64,000 bases of DNA from Nitrospiraceae bacterium (GTDB taxonomy: Bacteria; Nitrospirota; Nitrospiria; Nitrospirales; Nitrospiraceae): contig DASPUC010000033.1 of assembly GCA_035623075.1 (NCBI GenBank), positions 1 through 64,000 on the forward strand, read 5' to 3'. The position numbers and the translations under genes are program-made. This document shows positions 10,311-63,680 of the stretch, in pieces; the first letter of the stretch is position 1; each line of letters opens with the position of its first letter. Below the pieces are notes generated by a model, which saw nothing but the letters and a program-made list of their open reading frames with translations, did not search any database and was not told the DNA's origin.

Positions 10311-10826
10311 TTAGATGACACTTGCTTCAGCAAGAGGAATCTCAATCAGGGCCGGACTGCTTGAGGTGGCCGACAGCGGTTTCAGTCCCTCCGCTGCGTC
10401 ACCGCGAGGCGGTTTGTCCGAGAAGAGCATCACGATGCGCGATCGATCGATTTCGTCGCGAGAAGGCAGCCCGAATGCTTGGCAATACCAGGTTCCGGTA
10501 GGTCCCTGTATCGAACAGGGGATCGAGAACGGTTCGTATAAGTGCAACATGCGTCGGACATCAATGTGTTTGAGGATTCCATCCGCCAGATACGCGAGCA
10601 CCGGCGCGGGAATCTGTAGAGACTCTCCTTCGTTGGTGCCTTTGAGATCGCGCAATACTGTCATTCCGCCACGGCTGGCATAGAGGACGGCGAGGCTGGA
10701 TGACAGGACCACGATCGCGGAAGAGGTGTCGTGGTGCCGAACGACGCAAGTCTGATCTGCCGGCACGGCCTGTGTGTACATGGCGCCGATCTGCCTTTCG
10801 TGAAGATGAAGCCCCAGGCTCGACAT
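10311..10826 (-). CDS. PAS-like sensory protein
   Basis: The ATG at 10826 gives 171 residues and starts 8 bases after the upstream winged-helix gene stops; the longer frame would overlap that gene by more than 100 bases. An internal segment (AIVVLSSSLAVLYASRGG) looks like the first strands of a PAS fold. Further on, a second beta-rich block ends IVMLFSDKPP, as in PAS-LuxR proteins. No HTH or kinase domain follows, so it may act by binding its small DNA-binding partner. The absence of a ribosome site suggests translational coupling. The function is inferred from context only. Confidence 0.6.
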   Translation of the reverse strand: MSSLGLHLHERQIGAMYTQAVPADQTCVVRHHDTSSAIVVLSSSLAVLYASRGGMTVLRDLKGTNEGESLQIPAPVLAYLADGILKHIDVRRMLHLYEPFSIPCSIQGPTGTWYCQAFGLPSRDEIDRSRIVMLFSDKPPRGDAAEGLKPLSATSSSPALIEIPLAEASVI

Positions 10827-10834
10827 CGGCGGGG

Positions 10835-11053
10835 CTAGGCGACGATGTTCTGCGGGATGGGAGACACTTCGTACTCGTAGCCGCGGCGTCGCAAAGAGAT
10901 GATGCCGCGACGGCTTAGCGTATCGACTGTTTCGAAGATTTGGTTCCACGACAGTTGCGGTATGTCCTCAACGATCTGGTCGAGTATCACCGGATGAACC
11001 GTCTGTAGGTGATGCATCACCAGCGCTTCGTTTTCTTCCAGCGTTGACATCAT
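10835..11053 (-). CDS. Small winged-helix DNA-binding protein
   Basis: The ATG at 11053 (ribosome site GGAAGG upstream) gives 72 residues. The fold is helix-helix-wing: ILDQIVEDIPQLSWNQIFET supplies the recognition helices and GIISLRRRGYEYEV the wing. The protein encoded at 60348-60632 has the same core (LSWSQLFLAIIALSRAGDII...GFTYTL), so this is a small family in the genome. An 18-bp perfect palindrome lies 57-74 bases upstream and could be its operator. It is followed by the PAS-like gene. Confidence 0.7.
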   Translation of the reverse strand: MMSTLEENEALVMHHLQTVHPVILDQIVEDIPQLSWNQIFETVDTLSRRGIISLRRRGYEYEVSPIPQNIVA

Positions 11054-59986: not shown

Positions 59987-60376
59987 TCATGCATCAGAGT
60001 CGGTCAGCGGAAAGGTTTGCTCACAAATTCGTGTAAACAGACTCGCATCGAGCGGTTTCGTGACGTAGTGCTTGACTCCCAGCTTCAGCGCCTGTTCACG
60101 AACCCTGTGATCCGGGTCGGCAGTCATCATCACAACAGGCACATGCTTGTGTTGAATCTGGAGCTCACGAAGCACCTGAATCCCGTCCATGATGGGCATA
60201 TGCATGTCCAGCAGCACGCCGCCGATCGGAGCCTGCTTTGCCTCAAGCGTCATCAATGCCAAGCCCGTCCTCCCGTCGTGAGCGACAATGACGGAGTAGC
60301 CCATCGCCTGGAGTCGATCTTTTAAGGCTACACAGAGAGAGGGATTGTCATCGATGATCAGAATCCGTCGTCCCAT
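59987..60376 (-). CDS. Single-domain response regulator (receiver)
   Basis: The 129 residues are a CheY-like receiver: D9-D10, phospho-acceptor D57, T in VVMMTADPD and K in HYVTKPLDA. There is no output domain. The start overlaps the upstream winged-helix gene by 29 bases, so the two are translated from one message. Coupling to that DNA-binding protein suggests the receiver controls it. Confidence 0.88.
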   Translation of the reverse strand: MGRRILIIDDNPSLCVALKDRLQAMGYSVIVAHDGRTGLALMTLEAKQAPIGGVLLDMHMPIMDGIQVLRELQIQHKHVPVVMMTADPDHRVREQALKLGVKHYVTKPLDASLFTRICEQTFPLTDSDA

Positions 60377-60632
60377 GTGATTCTCCTACCAGGATTGGCG
60401 AAGGTTTTGCGGTCTCCAAGGTATAGGTGAAACCTTCCTGACGAAGAATGATGTCTCCGGCCCGGCTCAAGGCAATGATGGCGAGAAAGAGCTGACTCCA
60501 GCTTAGGTTAGGAGCTCGTGCTACAAGCTCCTCAACCGTCAATTTACTCGAAGACCGAAGGAGTTCCATGATCGAGGATTCCTGTCCCGCATGCTCAATA
60601 GGATGAGTACTCGTGTGAGTCTCTGTCGGCAT
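60348..60632 (-). CDS. Small winged-helix DNA-binding protein, paralogue of 10835-11053
   Basis: The ATG with AGGGAGGACCCC gives 94 residues. The core SSSKLTVEELVARAPNLSWS and LFLAIIALSRAGDIILRQEG matches the protein at 10835-11053 (LSW-x-Q-x-F/L, ALSR-x-G, G-x-x-Y). Residues 1-20 (MPTETHTSTHPIEHAGQESS) are variable. Pairing with a receiver makes it a split two-component output: receiver and DNA-binding domain are on separate chains. Confidence 0.7.
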   Translation of the reverse strand: MPTETHTSTHPIEHAGQESSIMELLRSSSKLTVEELVARAPNLSWSQLFLAIIALSRAGDIILRQEGFTYTLETAKPSPILVGESHGTTDSDHR

Positions 60633-60706: not shown

Positions 60707-60934
60707 CTATCTTCCGCGGGCACGGCGATTGGCCGTAATCACGGGATCGATGATCGCGCCACATTGCACACAGCTCCATGCGAGAGCTGTTGGTGTGCCC
60801 GTCGTCCAACCCCAGTCCTCATACATGACCTGAATGAGAAACCCCTGACAGCGCGGACAGTGAGCCGGCGAAACATCGGTCGCTTCACTCTCCGTGCAAG
60901 TGAGGTCAACCGTTCGTTCAGTACGATCACTCAC
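60707..60934 (-). CDS. Zinc-ribbon-like small protein next to the cupredoxin
   Basis: The 75 residues begin at a GTG that overlaps the cupredoxin stop (GTGA). Four cysteines in AHCPRCQGF and WSCVQCGAII form two C-x2-C pairs, as in zinc ribbons. LIQVMYEDWGWTTGTPTALA joins them. No enzyme motif is present. Coupling to the cupredoxin suggests a joint role, possibly metal handling or regulation; this is inference. Confidence 0.65.
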   Translation of the reverse strand: MSDRTERTVDLTCTESEATDVSPAHCPRCQGFLIQVMYEDWGWTTGTPTALAWSCVQCGAIIDPVITANRRARGR

Positions 60935-61359
60935 CTGGATTGTTCCAGGACGGAAATCATTGCGTCGCCTCGCACGAGAGGATCAAGGACAATGAGCGTA
61001 CCCCTCATCAGGGGATGCAACTCGCAGTGATAGGCATAGCGTCCCGGTGGCAGCGGAGCGATGAGAAAGCTGCTATCCGGCGGGACCGCGATCGATTGAA
61101 AGGCGCAGGTTTCATCCGTCACACACCCGTCATGGCGGACGCTGTGATGAGAAGCTGTGGCATTGATCCACCGAACAGGCGTGCCCGCCGACACGACGGC
61201 GACACGAGGTTGATAGTAGGGCGAGGTCGTTTCGAACAAAATCTCGACCGGAGTTGGCGCCGCACCGACAGTCGCTACGATGACGGTCATGAGCATGACT
61301 GCGCAGAACAGAAAAAGCGCGATCACGAGTCGGGTCCTGAGTGGACAGGGTTGGCTCAT
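60931..61359 (-). CDS. Exported plastocyanin-type cupredoxin
   Basis: The ATG at 61359 with GAAAGGAGGGATGTT gives 142 residues; the longer frame lacks support. A signal peptide (RLVIALFLFCAVMLMTVIVA) is followed by a cupredoxin fold. Type-1 copper ligands are His in ATASHHSVRHDGC and the C-x-x-H-x-x-M cluster in YHCELHPLMRGTLIV, as in plastocyanin/azurin-like proteins. It should carry single electrons in the periplasm. A coupled zinc-ribbon gene follows. Confidence 0.88.
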   Translation of the reverse strand: MSQPCPLRTRLVIALFLFCAVMLMTVIVATVGAAPTPVEILFETTSPYYQPRVAVVSAGTPVRWINATASHHSVRHDGCVTDETCAFQSIAVPPDSSFLIAPLPPGRYAYHCELHPLMRGTLIVLDPLVRGDAMISVLEQSR

Positions 61360-61545
61360 AACATCCCTCCTTTCGACGGCGGATCCCACGTCGATCTGGC
61401 TCGCGAACAGGATACCGCTGGAGGGAATAAGGACTCGATACCTGAAAGAGTGGCATCGCATAAAGAATGTATAAAGATCGACCGTATGAGGGCTCTTGCG
61501 CAGACGGAAGAGAAGAACGATCAGGGGCTGAAGACAGAGCGGAGC

Positions 61546-62256
61546 TTAGGCGACCGACGGAGCATCGCCTTCGAGGCAGAAGCGATACCCGACGCCGGGA
61601 TCGGTCAGGATGAACCGAGGGCGAGTCGGGTCCTTTTCGAGTTTTTTCCTCAGTTGGCCGATGAAGACGCGCAGATATTGGGCCTGGTCCATGTACGCCT
61701 GCCCCCACACCTCCTGCAGCAGCATCCGGTGCGTGAGCACCTTGCCGGCATGTTCGATCATATATTTGAGCAGGTCATACTCGGTTGGGGTCAGTTTGAC
61801 CGGCTTGTGATCCAGCGTGACCTCACGCCGGTCAAAATTCACGCAGAGGCCGCCCGCGACGAATTCCGGTTGCGAGCTATGGGCGCCGGCCGCTCTCCGC
61901 AACAAGGAACGCATGCGGGCCAGCAGTTCATCCATGCCGAAGGGTTTTGTCATGTAATCGTCCGCGCCCAGTTCGAGCGCTTCGACCTTCCGGGACTCCT
62001 CGCCCATTGCCGAGAGCACAATGATCGGCACCGTCGAGGATTCGCGAATTCGGCGCACCACCGCGACTCCGCCCATCCCTGGCATGATGAGGTCAAGAAT
62101 GACGACATCGGGACGCCGGTTGCGGAAGGAATTCAGCGCACCTTCACCTGACTCCACCGTTTCGACCGCGTAACCGCTGCGTTCCAGATTCACTTGGAGG
62201 GATCGCCTGATCTGCGGTTCATCGTCCACGACGAGAATGCGGGCGCCCTGTGTCAC
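61546..62256 (-). CDS. OmpR/KdpE-type response regulator
   Basis: The 236 residues have a receiver (D11-D12, D55, K105 region in DDYMTKPFG) and a winged-helix OmpR/PhoB output domain with KLTPTEYDLLKYMIEHAGKV. It is close to KdpE by similarity, but no kdp genes are present. The GTG start overlaps the kinase stop (GTGA), so translation is coupled. The likely partner is the PilJ-type kinase just upstream. Confidence 0.9.
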   Translation of the reverse strand: MTQGARILVVDDEPQIRRSLQVNLERSGYAVETVESGEGALNSFRNRRPDVVILDLIMPGMGGVAVVRRIRESSTVPIIVLSAMGEESRKVEALELGADDYMTKPFGMDELLARMRSLLRRAAGAHSSQPEFVAGGLCVNFDRREVTLDHKPVKLTPTEYDLLKYMIEHAGKVLTHRMLLQEVWGQAYMDQAQYLRVFIGQLRKKLEKDPTRPRFILTDPGVGYRFCLEGDAPSVA

Positions 62257-63680
62257 GATGCCCTCTGAACAACGTGAGGCTCGGAGGTCGCTTGGTCTCC
62301 GTCAGATGGCGAGACGGCCACCGGGATCCGAAACACAATGGTCGTCTCTTTACTGGGAATCGACTCCGCAAGAATAGAACCGCCGTGAGCTTCGACGATG
62401 CCCTTGCATATTGCCAACCCAAGCCCGGTGCCGGGAGAGCCGGACGAGCGTCCGGACTGGACGCGGTAGAACCGGTCGAAGATCCGGTCCAGCTCGTGGG
62501 GGGGGATCCCTTCGCCGATATTCGTCACGCGCACTTCGAGAAAGTTTCCCGCCAGGGCGGCGGTGAGCCGGATCGGGGACTGTGCCGGAGAAAACTTAAT
62601 CGCGTTGTCCAGGAGATTCACGAACACCTGCTGAAGTTGCATCCCGTCGACAGAGATCGGGGGAAGATCCTGAGCCAGGTGGACGTGAAGTTCACGGCCC
62701 GCCAGTAACGGGTCGATGCGGCGGATCGCGCCTTCCACCAATTCCTCCAAGATCTGCCACTCCCGGCGGGGTGTGAGCGTCCCCGCCTCAAGACGTGACA
62801 TGTCTAGGAGATTGCCGACCAGGTTGTTCAAATAATCCAACTCACGATCGATACCAGTGAGAAACTCGTGGCGAACGGACGACGGTAGCGACTCTCTGTC
62901 GTGTTGAAGGCTGAACAACATCGTTTTGATCGCCGTCAGCGGTGTCCGAAGCTCATGCGAGACGGAAGACAGCAACGAAGATTTGACGGCGTCGCGCTGG
63001 CGCAAGGCTTGGACGGTCATTGCCTGACTCTGTTTCAGTGCCTGCTCCGCTCGCAGAAAGCGCCAGGTGCCCAACGTCGCCACTACCAACACCACCAAGA
63101 CCACCGCTAGTTCCCAACGAATGAGCGTCTGGACGTTGTTCTCCGAATGCTTGGTCAAGAGCATCACGACATCGTTGGCGGTCGTCAACAACGCAGTGTT
63201 GTCGCTGAGCAGTTCATCGCGCGCCGTGCTGCTCTCGATGCCGGTCCGTGCACGCAGAAGGAAGGCATCGGCTTGGGCAAACAACAATTCCATGAGCCGT
63301 TGCTGCTCGAGCAGCGCCTGTCGAATCTCGTCGGTCGGAGCTGCTGGAACTGCAACGGTCCCGCGATGATCGGCTTCGGCAACCGTCGTACCACCCTGGA
63401 TCAGTGTCTGCACGCGTTCCTTCAGAGCAGCGCGAGTTTGCTGGTACTGAGCGTCGACTCCTTGCGAGGCGAGGAGGATCTCTTTCACATGACGCTCGAG
63501 CAACATGCGTTGCCGGCCGGCGAGGTCGATGACGACCGCATCGGATTCACGACTATGGATGACAGTGAGAGTGAGGGGGACGATGGCGAGAGCAGTAATG
63601 ATCAGAAGGCCGAGGATGCCTACAACGGTCCAACTGATATCGTGCGATCTCACAGACGGGGAGGGTGTGGCGGCAGCCAT
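62253..63680 (-). CDS. PilJ/NIT-type membrane sensor histidine kinase
   Basis: The 475 residues have a membrane helix at about 17-38 and a second at about 190-207. Between them lies a type IV pilus/PilJ-like sensor (IDLAGRQRMLLERHVKEILL). A HisKA domain with LSSVSHELRTPLTAIKTMLF and an HATPase domain with DNAIKFSPAQS and GTGLGLAICKGIVEAHGG follow. The A-G-R-Q-R-M motif is shared by nitrate/nitrite-sensing and pilin-like sensors. The 4-base overlap with the regulator marks a pair. The signal is unknown. Confidence 0.9.
   Translation of the reverse strand: MAAATPSPSVRSHDISWTVVGILGLLIITALAIVPLTLTVIHSRESDAVVIDLAGRQRMLLERHVKEILLASQGVDAQYQQTRAALKERVQTLIQGGTTVAEADHRGTVAVPAAPTDEIRQALLEQQRLMELLFAQADAFLLRARTGIESSTARDELLSDNTALLTTANDVVMLLTKHSENNVQTLIRWELAVVLVVLVVATLGTWRFLRAEQALKQSQAMTVQALRQRDAVKSSLLSSVSHELRTPLTAIKTMLFSLQHDRESLPSSVRHEFLTGIDRELDYLNNLVGNLLDMSRLEAGTLTPRREWQILEELVEGAIRRIDPLLAGRELHVHLAQDLPPISVDGMQLQQVFVNLLDNAIKFSPAQSPIRLTAALAGNFLEVRVTNIGEGIPPHELDRIFDRFYRVQSGRSSGSPGTGLGLAICKGIVEAHGGSILAESIPSKETTIVFRIPVAVSPSDGDQATSEPHVVQRAS

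Follow-up and report, generated by a model that had tools for sequence, protein, structure and literature searches.

Small output domains that are restricted to one lineage, occur in many stand-alone copies per genome, are linked to receivers and are also found fused to them have been described in archaea as HalOD1 and NitrOD (PMC5847659). In the FilI-FilR1-FilR2 system of methanogens, a single kinase is accompanied by a stand-alone receiver and by a response regulator with a winged helix (PMC5847659). OmpR/PhoB-type response regulators such as KdpE carry a receiver followed by a winged-helix output on a single polypeptide, with a β-sheet preceding the winged helix. CheY and Spo0F are single receiver domains, and DUF2582 (PF10771) is a family of small winged helices.

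Here we analyzed a pair of overlapping genes, encoding a stand-alone receiver and a small protein with a predicted winged-helix fold, in a stretch of 64,000 nucleotides of Nitrospiraceae DNA (the window). The small protein belongs to a family that is likewise lineage-specific, multi-copy, stand-alone and in some cases receiver-linked, but in contrast to HalOD1 and NitrOD (PMC5847659) its host is bacterial and no receiver fusion was found. In the Fil system winged helix and receiver are joined in one protein (PMC5847659); the predicted minimal winged helix of the pair has its own gene, which overlaps the gene of the stand-alone receiver. The locus shares the combination of receiver and winged-helix output with OmpR/PhoB-type regulators, and encodes a true KdpE-like member as well, but in the pair the domains are on two polypeptides, the gene order is reversed and the predicted fold is minimal. 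The receiver resembles CheY and Spo0F in its single domain with intact phosphorylation residues but, unlike such stand-alone receivers, has a fixed, overlapping partner gene. The small protein has the size and predicted fold of DUF2582, a model that distant members of the family from a different class of the phylum match weakly (E 0.00057), but the Nitrospiraceae members fall under its cut-off (the 94-residue protein gave no match; one of 27 members reached E 0.038).

The overlapping genes and the predicted fold

Both open reading frames proposed by the sequence-only reading are present on the minus strand and overlap by exactly the 29 bases it had given (Table 1). The receiver scored 84 bits against Response_reg (PF00072; cut-off 30.2), and direct reading of the protein identifies the acidic pair (D9/D10), the phospho-acceptor Asp (D57), Thr (T85) and Lys (K107). 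A TAGGAG Shine-Dalgarno-like sequence stands at the receiver start, and the TGA stop codon of the winged-helix gene sits within the GAT GAC (Asp-Asp) codons of the receiver. The 94-residue frame is not a chance open reading frame, because it has homologues in tens of genomes, its Trp and the Arg of its LSR motif are nearly universal among them, and the overlap was found again in five orthologous loci.

Table 1. Features of the window discussed in the text (all on the minus strand).
Feature	Position	Strand	Remarks
PAS-like neighbour of the second family member	10311..10781	-	start revised to 10781; homologues in loci L019, L135, L200
Second family member in the window	10835..11053	-	groups with the PsiE/Pho clade
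Stand-alone receiver, 129 aa	59987..60376	-	Pfam Response_reg 1e-23; phosphorylation residues complete
Gene overlap, 29 bases	60348..60376	-	end of winged-helix gene, start of receiver gene
Small winged-helix protein, 94 aa	60348..60632	-	winged helix predicted by AlphaFold; member of a multi-copy Nitrospiraceae family
Cys-rich zinc-ribbon-like protein, 75 aa	60707..60934	-	between cupredoxin and winged helix; weak rubrerythrin-like/zinc-ribbon matches only
Cupredoxin (blue copper protein-like)	60931..61359	-	Pfam Cupredoxin_1 5.7e-8; in 6/6 orthologous loci
Direct repeat CTTTAT-ACATT-CTTTAT, 11-bp period	61460..61476	-	candidate operator of the KdpE-like regulator
OmpR/PhoB-type response regulator, closest to KdpE	61546..62256	-	Response_reg and Trans_reg_C
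Histidine kinase, N-terminal PilJ (NarX-like) sensor domain	62253..63680	-	PilJ 4.6e-8, HisKA 3.4e-16, HATPase_c 6.7e-29

The AlphaFold model of the 94-residue protein, computed from eight sequences, has the H1-S1-H2-H3-S2-S3 topology of a winged helix (H12-28, E30-32, H33-39, H45-58, E61-66, E69-74), with pLDDT 84-90 in the core. The best Foldseek match (E 0.003) is under strict significance, and the match list consists mostly of winged helices. Re-examination of Foldseek's candidates by VIA comparison gave Z scores of 9-11.6, the matched structures being winged helices of RNA polymerase III, Rpa2, ArsR/MarR repressors and a DUF2582 protein. Solved structures searched with a profile yielded no convincing relative. 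The models thus agree with the fold assigned by the sequence-only reading and support a minimal winged helix. Many winged helices bind proteins, and DNA binding by this one is not favoured by the acidic core of the family (median pI 6.0; pI 5.4 and net charge -5 for the 94-residue protein).

That the small protein is the cut-off output half of an OmpR/PhoB protein, a split response regulator in that sense, is unlikely, given a minimal fold that lacks the OmpR-type N-terminal β-sheet. It had no Pfam match, Trans_reg_C (PF00486) included, at E 1, and no strand precedes helix 12-28.

The LSWxQ...LSRxG...Y core noticed earlier is indeed common to the 94-residue protein and its 72-residue homologue elsewhere in the window (second family member, Table 1): the two are reciprocal matches at E ~1e-6 in a search of the genome, and their Trp and LSR positions align. 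The PAS-like gene beside the second member probably starts at 10781, 53 bp from that member's gene and with no overlap. Its product matched no PAS profile, two of its homologues match PAS_9 and PAS_8 below cut-off, and its single-sequence AlphaFold model has a pLDDT of 34.

Conservation of the locus and a candidate operator

The genes for the kinase, the KdpE-like regulator, the cupredoxin and the 75-residue protein lie upstream of the pair and are all co-directional with it; past the receiver is a convergent SPFH gene. The best NCBIfam model for the regulator is KdpE (7.8e-66), under that model's cut-off. We know of no other pairing of a PilJ-sensor kinase with a KdpE-like regulator; that the kinase senses nitrate or nitrite is a guess.

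A profile of the pair's winged helix, searched against 175 genomes of family f1, recovered six orthologues at 85-155 bits and all other family members at 73 bits or less, a gap that sets the orthologue group apart. At all six orthologous loci, which belong to three genera (g1, g2 and g6), the order is KdpE-like regulator, cupredoxin, winged helix, receiver; the 75-residue Cys-rich protein had no call in the other five. One locus has its match in Nitrospira sp. CR1.3, and the kinase is present there too. The receivers retain the catalytic residues throughout (6/6), and the winged-helix and receiver genes overlap by 29, 29, 29, 23, 11 and 4 bp, the last value resting on a GTG start assigned by eye. 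The earlier proposal that the pair forms one functional unit is supported by this pattern, in which the receiver lies directly downstream with a 4-29 bp overlap in every orthologue while the genes beyond it vary from genome to genome.

Adjacency has outlasted much divergence, since identity to the window proteins is 39-49% for the winged helices and 35-48% for the receivers, as against 77-80% for the regulators (cupredoxins, 59-71%). An overlap kept despite such fast divergence argues for a functional link between winged helix and receiver. Owing to their common ancestry, however, the six loci count as one evolutionary event and not six. The evolutionary distances of winged helix and receiver correlate over the six loci (r = 0.6), but this signal is non-specific, because winged helix and regulator correlate equally (also 0.6).

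The spacer between the regulator and cupredoxin genes contains a direct repeat of the form CTTTAT-N5-CTTTAT that is kept in 6/6 orthologous loci. The repeat has a single perfect match in the 3.39-Mb genome; a control pattern had 0. Direct repeats with an 11-bp period are the type of site bound by OmpR-type regulators, so the operon targeted by the KdpE-like regulator is probably that of the cupredoxin, winged-helix and receiver genes, and the repeat is likely the regulator's operator. The spacer between the cupredoxin and winged-helix genes is short or absent in most of the six loci, consistent with co-transcription.

The winged-helix family and its neighbourhoods

The family is undescribed, centred on Nitrospiraceae and present in up to about ten copies per genome. 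Members occur in 56 of 198 genomes of the phylum, concentrated in family f1 and usually in 2-11 copies, with weaker relatives in two other families; a profile search found 11 in the present genome. Pfam and NCBIfam hold no model for it, no member in a 27-row alignment scored above the cut-off of any Pfam output-domain family, and we found no description of it among open papers. Scans of contigs with the 94-residue protein alone or with the 27-row alignment returned no matches, and a scan with a five-row alignment returned six loci, all from Nitrospira or Nitrospirae. Two members stand in tandem in the present genome (G000:C2:1483-2306; L002, L009), and contigs C1 and C51 carry close paralogues.

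We sampled the neighbourhoods of 145 members with flanks from 54 genomes, 144 of which have the conserved Trp and 143 the LSR Arg. The sequence-only reading had suggested that different sensors might use the family as a general small DNA-binding output, and had named homologues lacking receiver or PAS neighbours as the observation that would speak against it. The sample does speak against it: a receiver-domain gene adjoins 29 of the 145 on either side and none adjoins the other 116, PAS-like neighbours occur at only four places, and the clades lie beside diverse operons. A co-directional receiver gene within 100 bp downstream was present for 11. Because a receiver neighbour is missing for most members, the winged helix can in general do without one.

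The main clades instead adjoin PsiE/Ppx/PhoU (Pho), cyanase/AmtB, Hsp20, DUF2934 or phosphoribosyltransferase genes, and the tree tracks the neighbourhood. The family has the look of a collection of local regulators, with receivers gained by some of them. In a second receiver-linked clade, a NarL-type regulator lies upstream of the winged helix and a receiver lacking the phospho-acceptor Asp lies downstream; this trio is conserved at seven loci (L099, L117, L118, L128, L140, L144 and L147), mostly in genus g18. Locus L166 is a third case of a receiver directly downstream.

Several neighbourhoods have further regular features. A sigma-54-like promoter (TGGCAC-N6-TGCA) lies just upstream of the winged-helix gene at nine loci of the Hsp20 or phosphoribosyltransferase clades (L006, L017, L078, L084, L088, L103, L123, L148 and L165), and a sigma-54-like promoter resembling TGGCACTGAACTTGCT lies in the same place at four AmtB-clade loci (L016, L024, L033 and L126), so the members at these loci look like the first genes of sigma-54 operons. 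At L016, L024, L033, L035, L126 and L216 the member is flanked by a cyanase gene (in L216, one for a PII protein) on one side and the gene of an ammonium transporter on the other, and often overlaps the start of the latter. At L175, L178 and L181, distant members from another family of the order stand before a PstS-like gene, and those at L178 and L181 also come after a PAS-type kinase; these neighbourhoods connect the phosphate clade with a Pho context of greater age.

Readings of the pair and their significance

With confidence approaching but not reaching even, we read the pair as a response regulator made as two polypeptides that exerts feedback on the operon encoding it, and as one use among others of a lineage-specific winged-helix family. 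The phosphorylatable stand-alone receiver and the minimal winged helix would be its two halves, and translational coupling through the overlap would ensure that both are made together. The pair would be last in an operon with the cupredoxin gene, preceded by the PilJ-type kinase and the KdpE-like regulator, the latter probably controlling this operon from the CTTTAT repeat in front of the cupredoxin gene, to which it would bind. The receiver would be phosphorylated by the same or another kinase and would then bind the winged helix, altering its activity at its own or other promoters, most simply as feedback. The receivers directly downstream in two further clades (those lacking the Asp and linked to a NarL-type regulator, and L166) support the two-polypeptide reading. 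A search for fusions of winged helix and receiver found none, so there is no single polypeptide that proves joint action of the two domains.

Alternatively, the two proteins could be independent products of one operon. The receiver would take phosphate from the upstream kinase as a sink or relay of the CheY/Spo0F kind, a role that is plausible at a locus that already has a kinase and an intact response regulator; the winged helix would regulate its own operon locally, as its relatives beside PsiE, AmtB and Hsp20 genes may do; and the overlap would couple translation only. This would fit a family in which most members lack a receiver and the clades lie beside diverse operons, and the non-specific distance correlation is compatible with it, but the pair stays adjacent and overlapping at 6/6 loci despite strong divergence, and receivers recur downstream in two other clades. 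We consider independent products unlikely, though worth serious consideration. A mere chance neighbourhood, or an over-called reading frame with no functional link, is scarcely credible. A receiver was seen directly downstream of only one of the 11 members in this genome, which has 48 receiver matches in all, but the order is conserved at 6/6 loci in three genera with different genes downstream, and the homology of the 94-residue frame is clear; we rejected this explanation on the conserved order.

The winged helix might also be a protein-interaction module that does not bind DNA, such as one that inhibits the receiver or the KdpE-like regulator or serves either as an adaptor. Its acidic core favours such a role, as do best fold matches that include the interaction winged helices of Rpc34, Rpa2 and the cullin WHB domain. 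However, DNA-binding repressors of the ArsR and MarR-like kinds reach similar scores, several clades commonly have a basic wing (RRxGF), and members adjoin diverse operons as local transcription regulators do, so that we rate a purely protein-binding role as improbable.

If the two-polypeptide reading is extended to the family, the minimal winged helices may be detachable output modules in Nitrospira, each serving one operon, some of which became two-polypeptide response regulators by recruiting a downstream receiver, phosphorylatable or lacking the Asp, independently in at least three clades. We offer this generalization as a possibility that is more doubtful than probable. In many habitats Nitrospira is the dominant nitrite oxidizer, and to our knowledge little is known about its gene regulation. 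The family supplies concrete candidate local regulators, up to about ten per genome, many of them next to operons for nitrogen, phosphate, stress or copper, and the overlapping pair, with its defined operon and candidate promoter site, is a case in which the encoding of a response regulator by two polypeptides can be tested simply.
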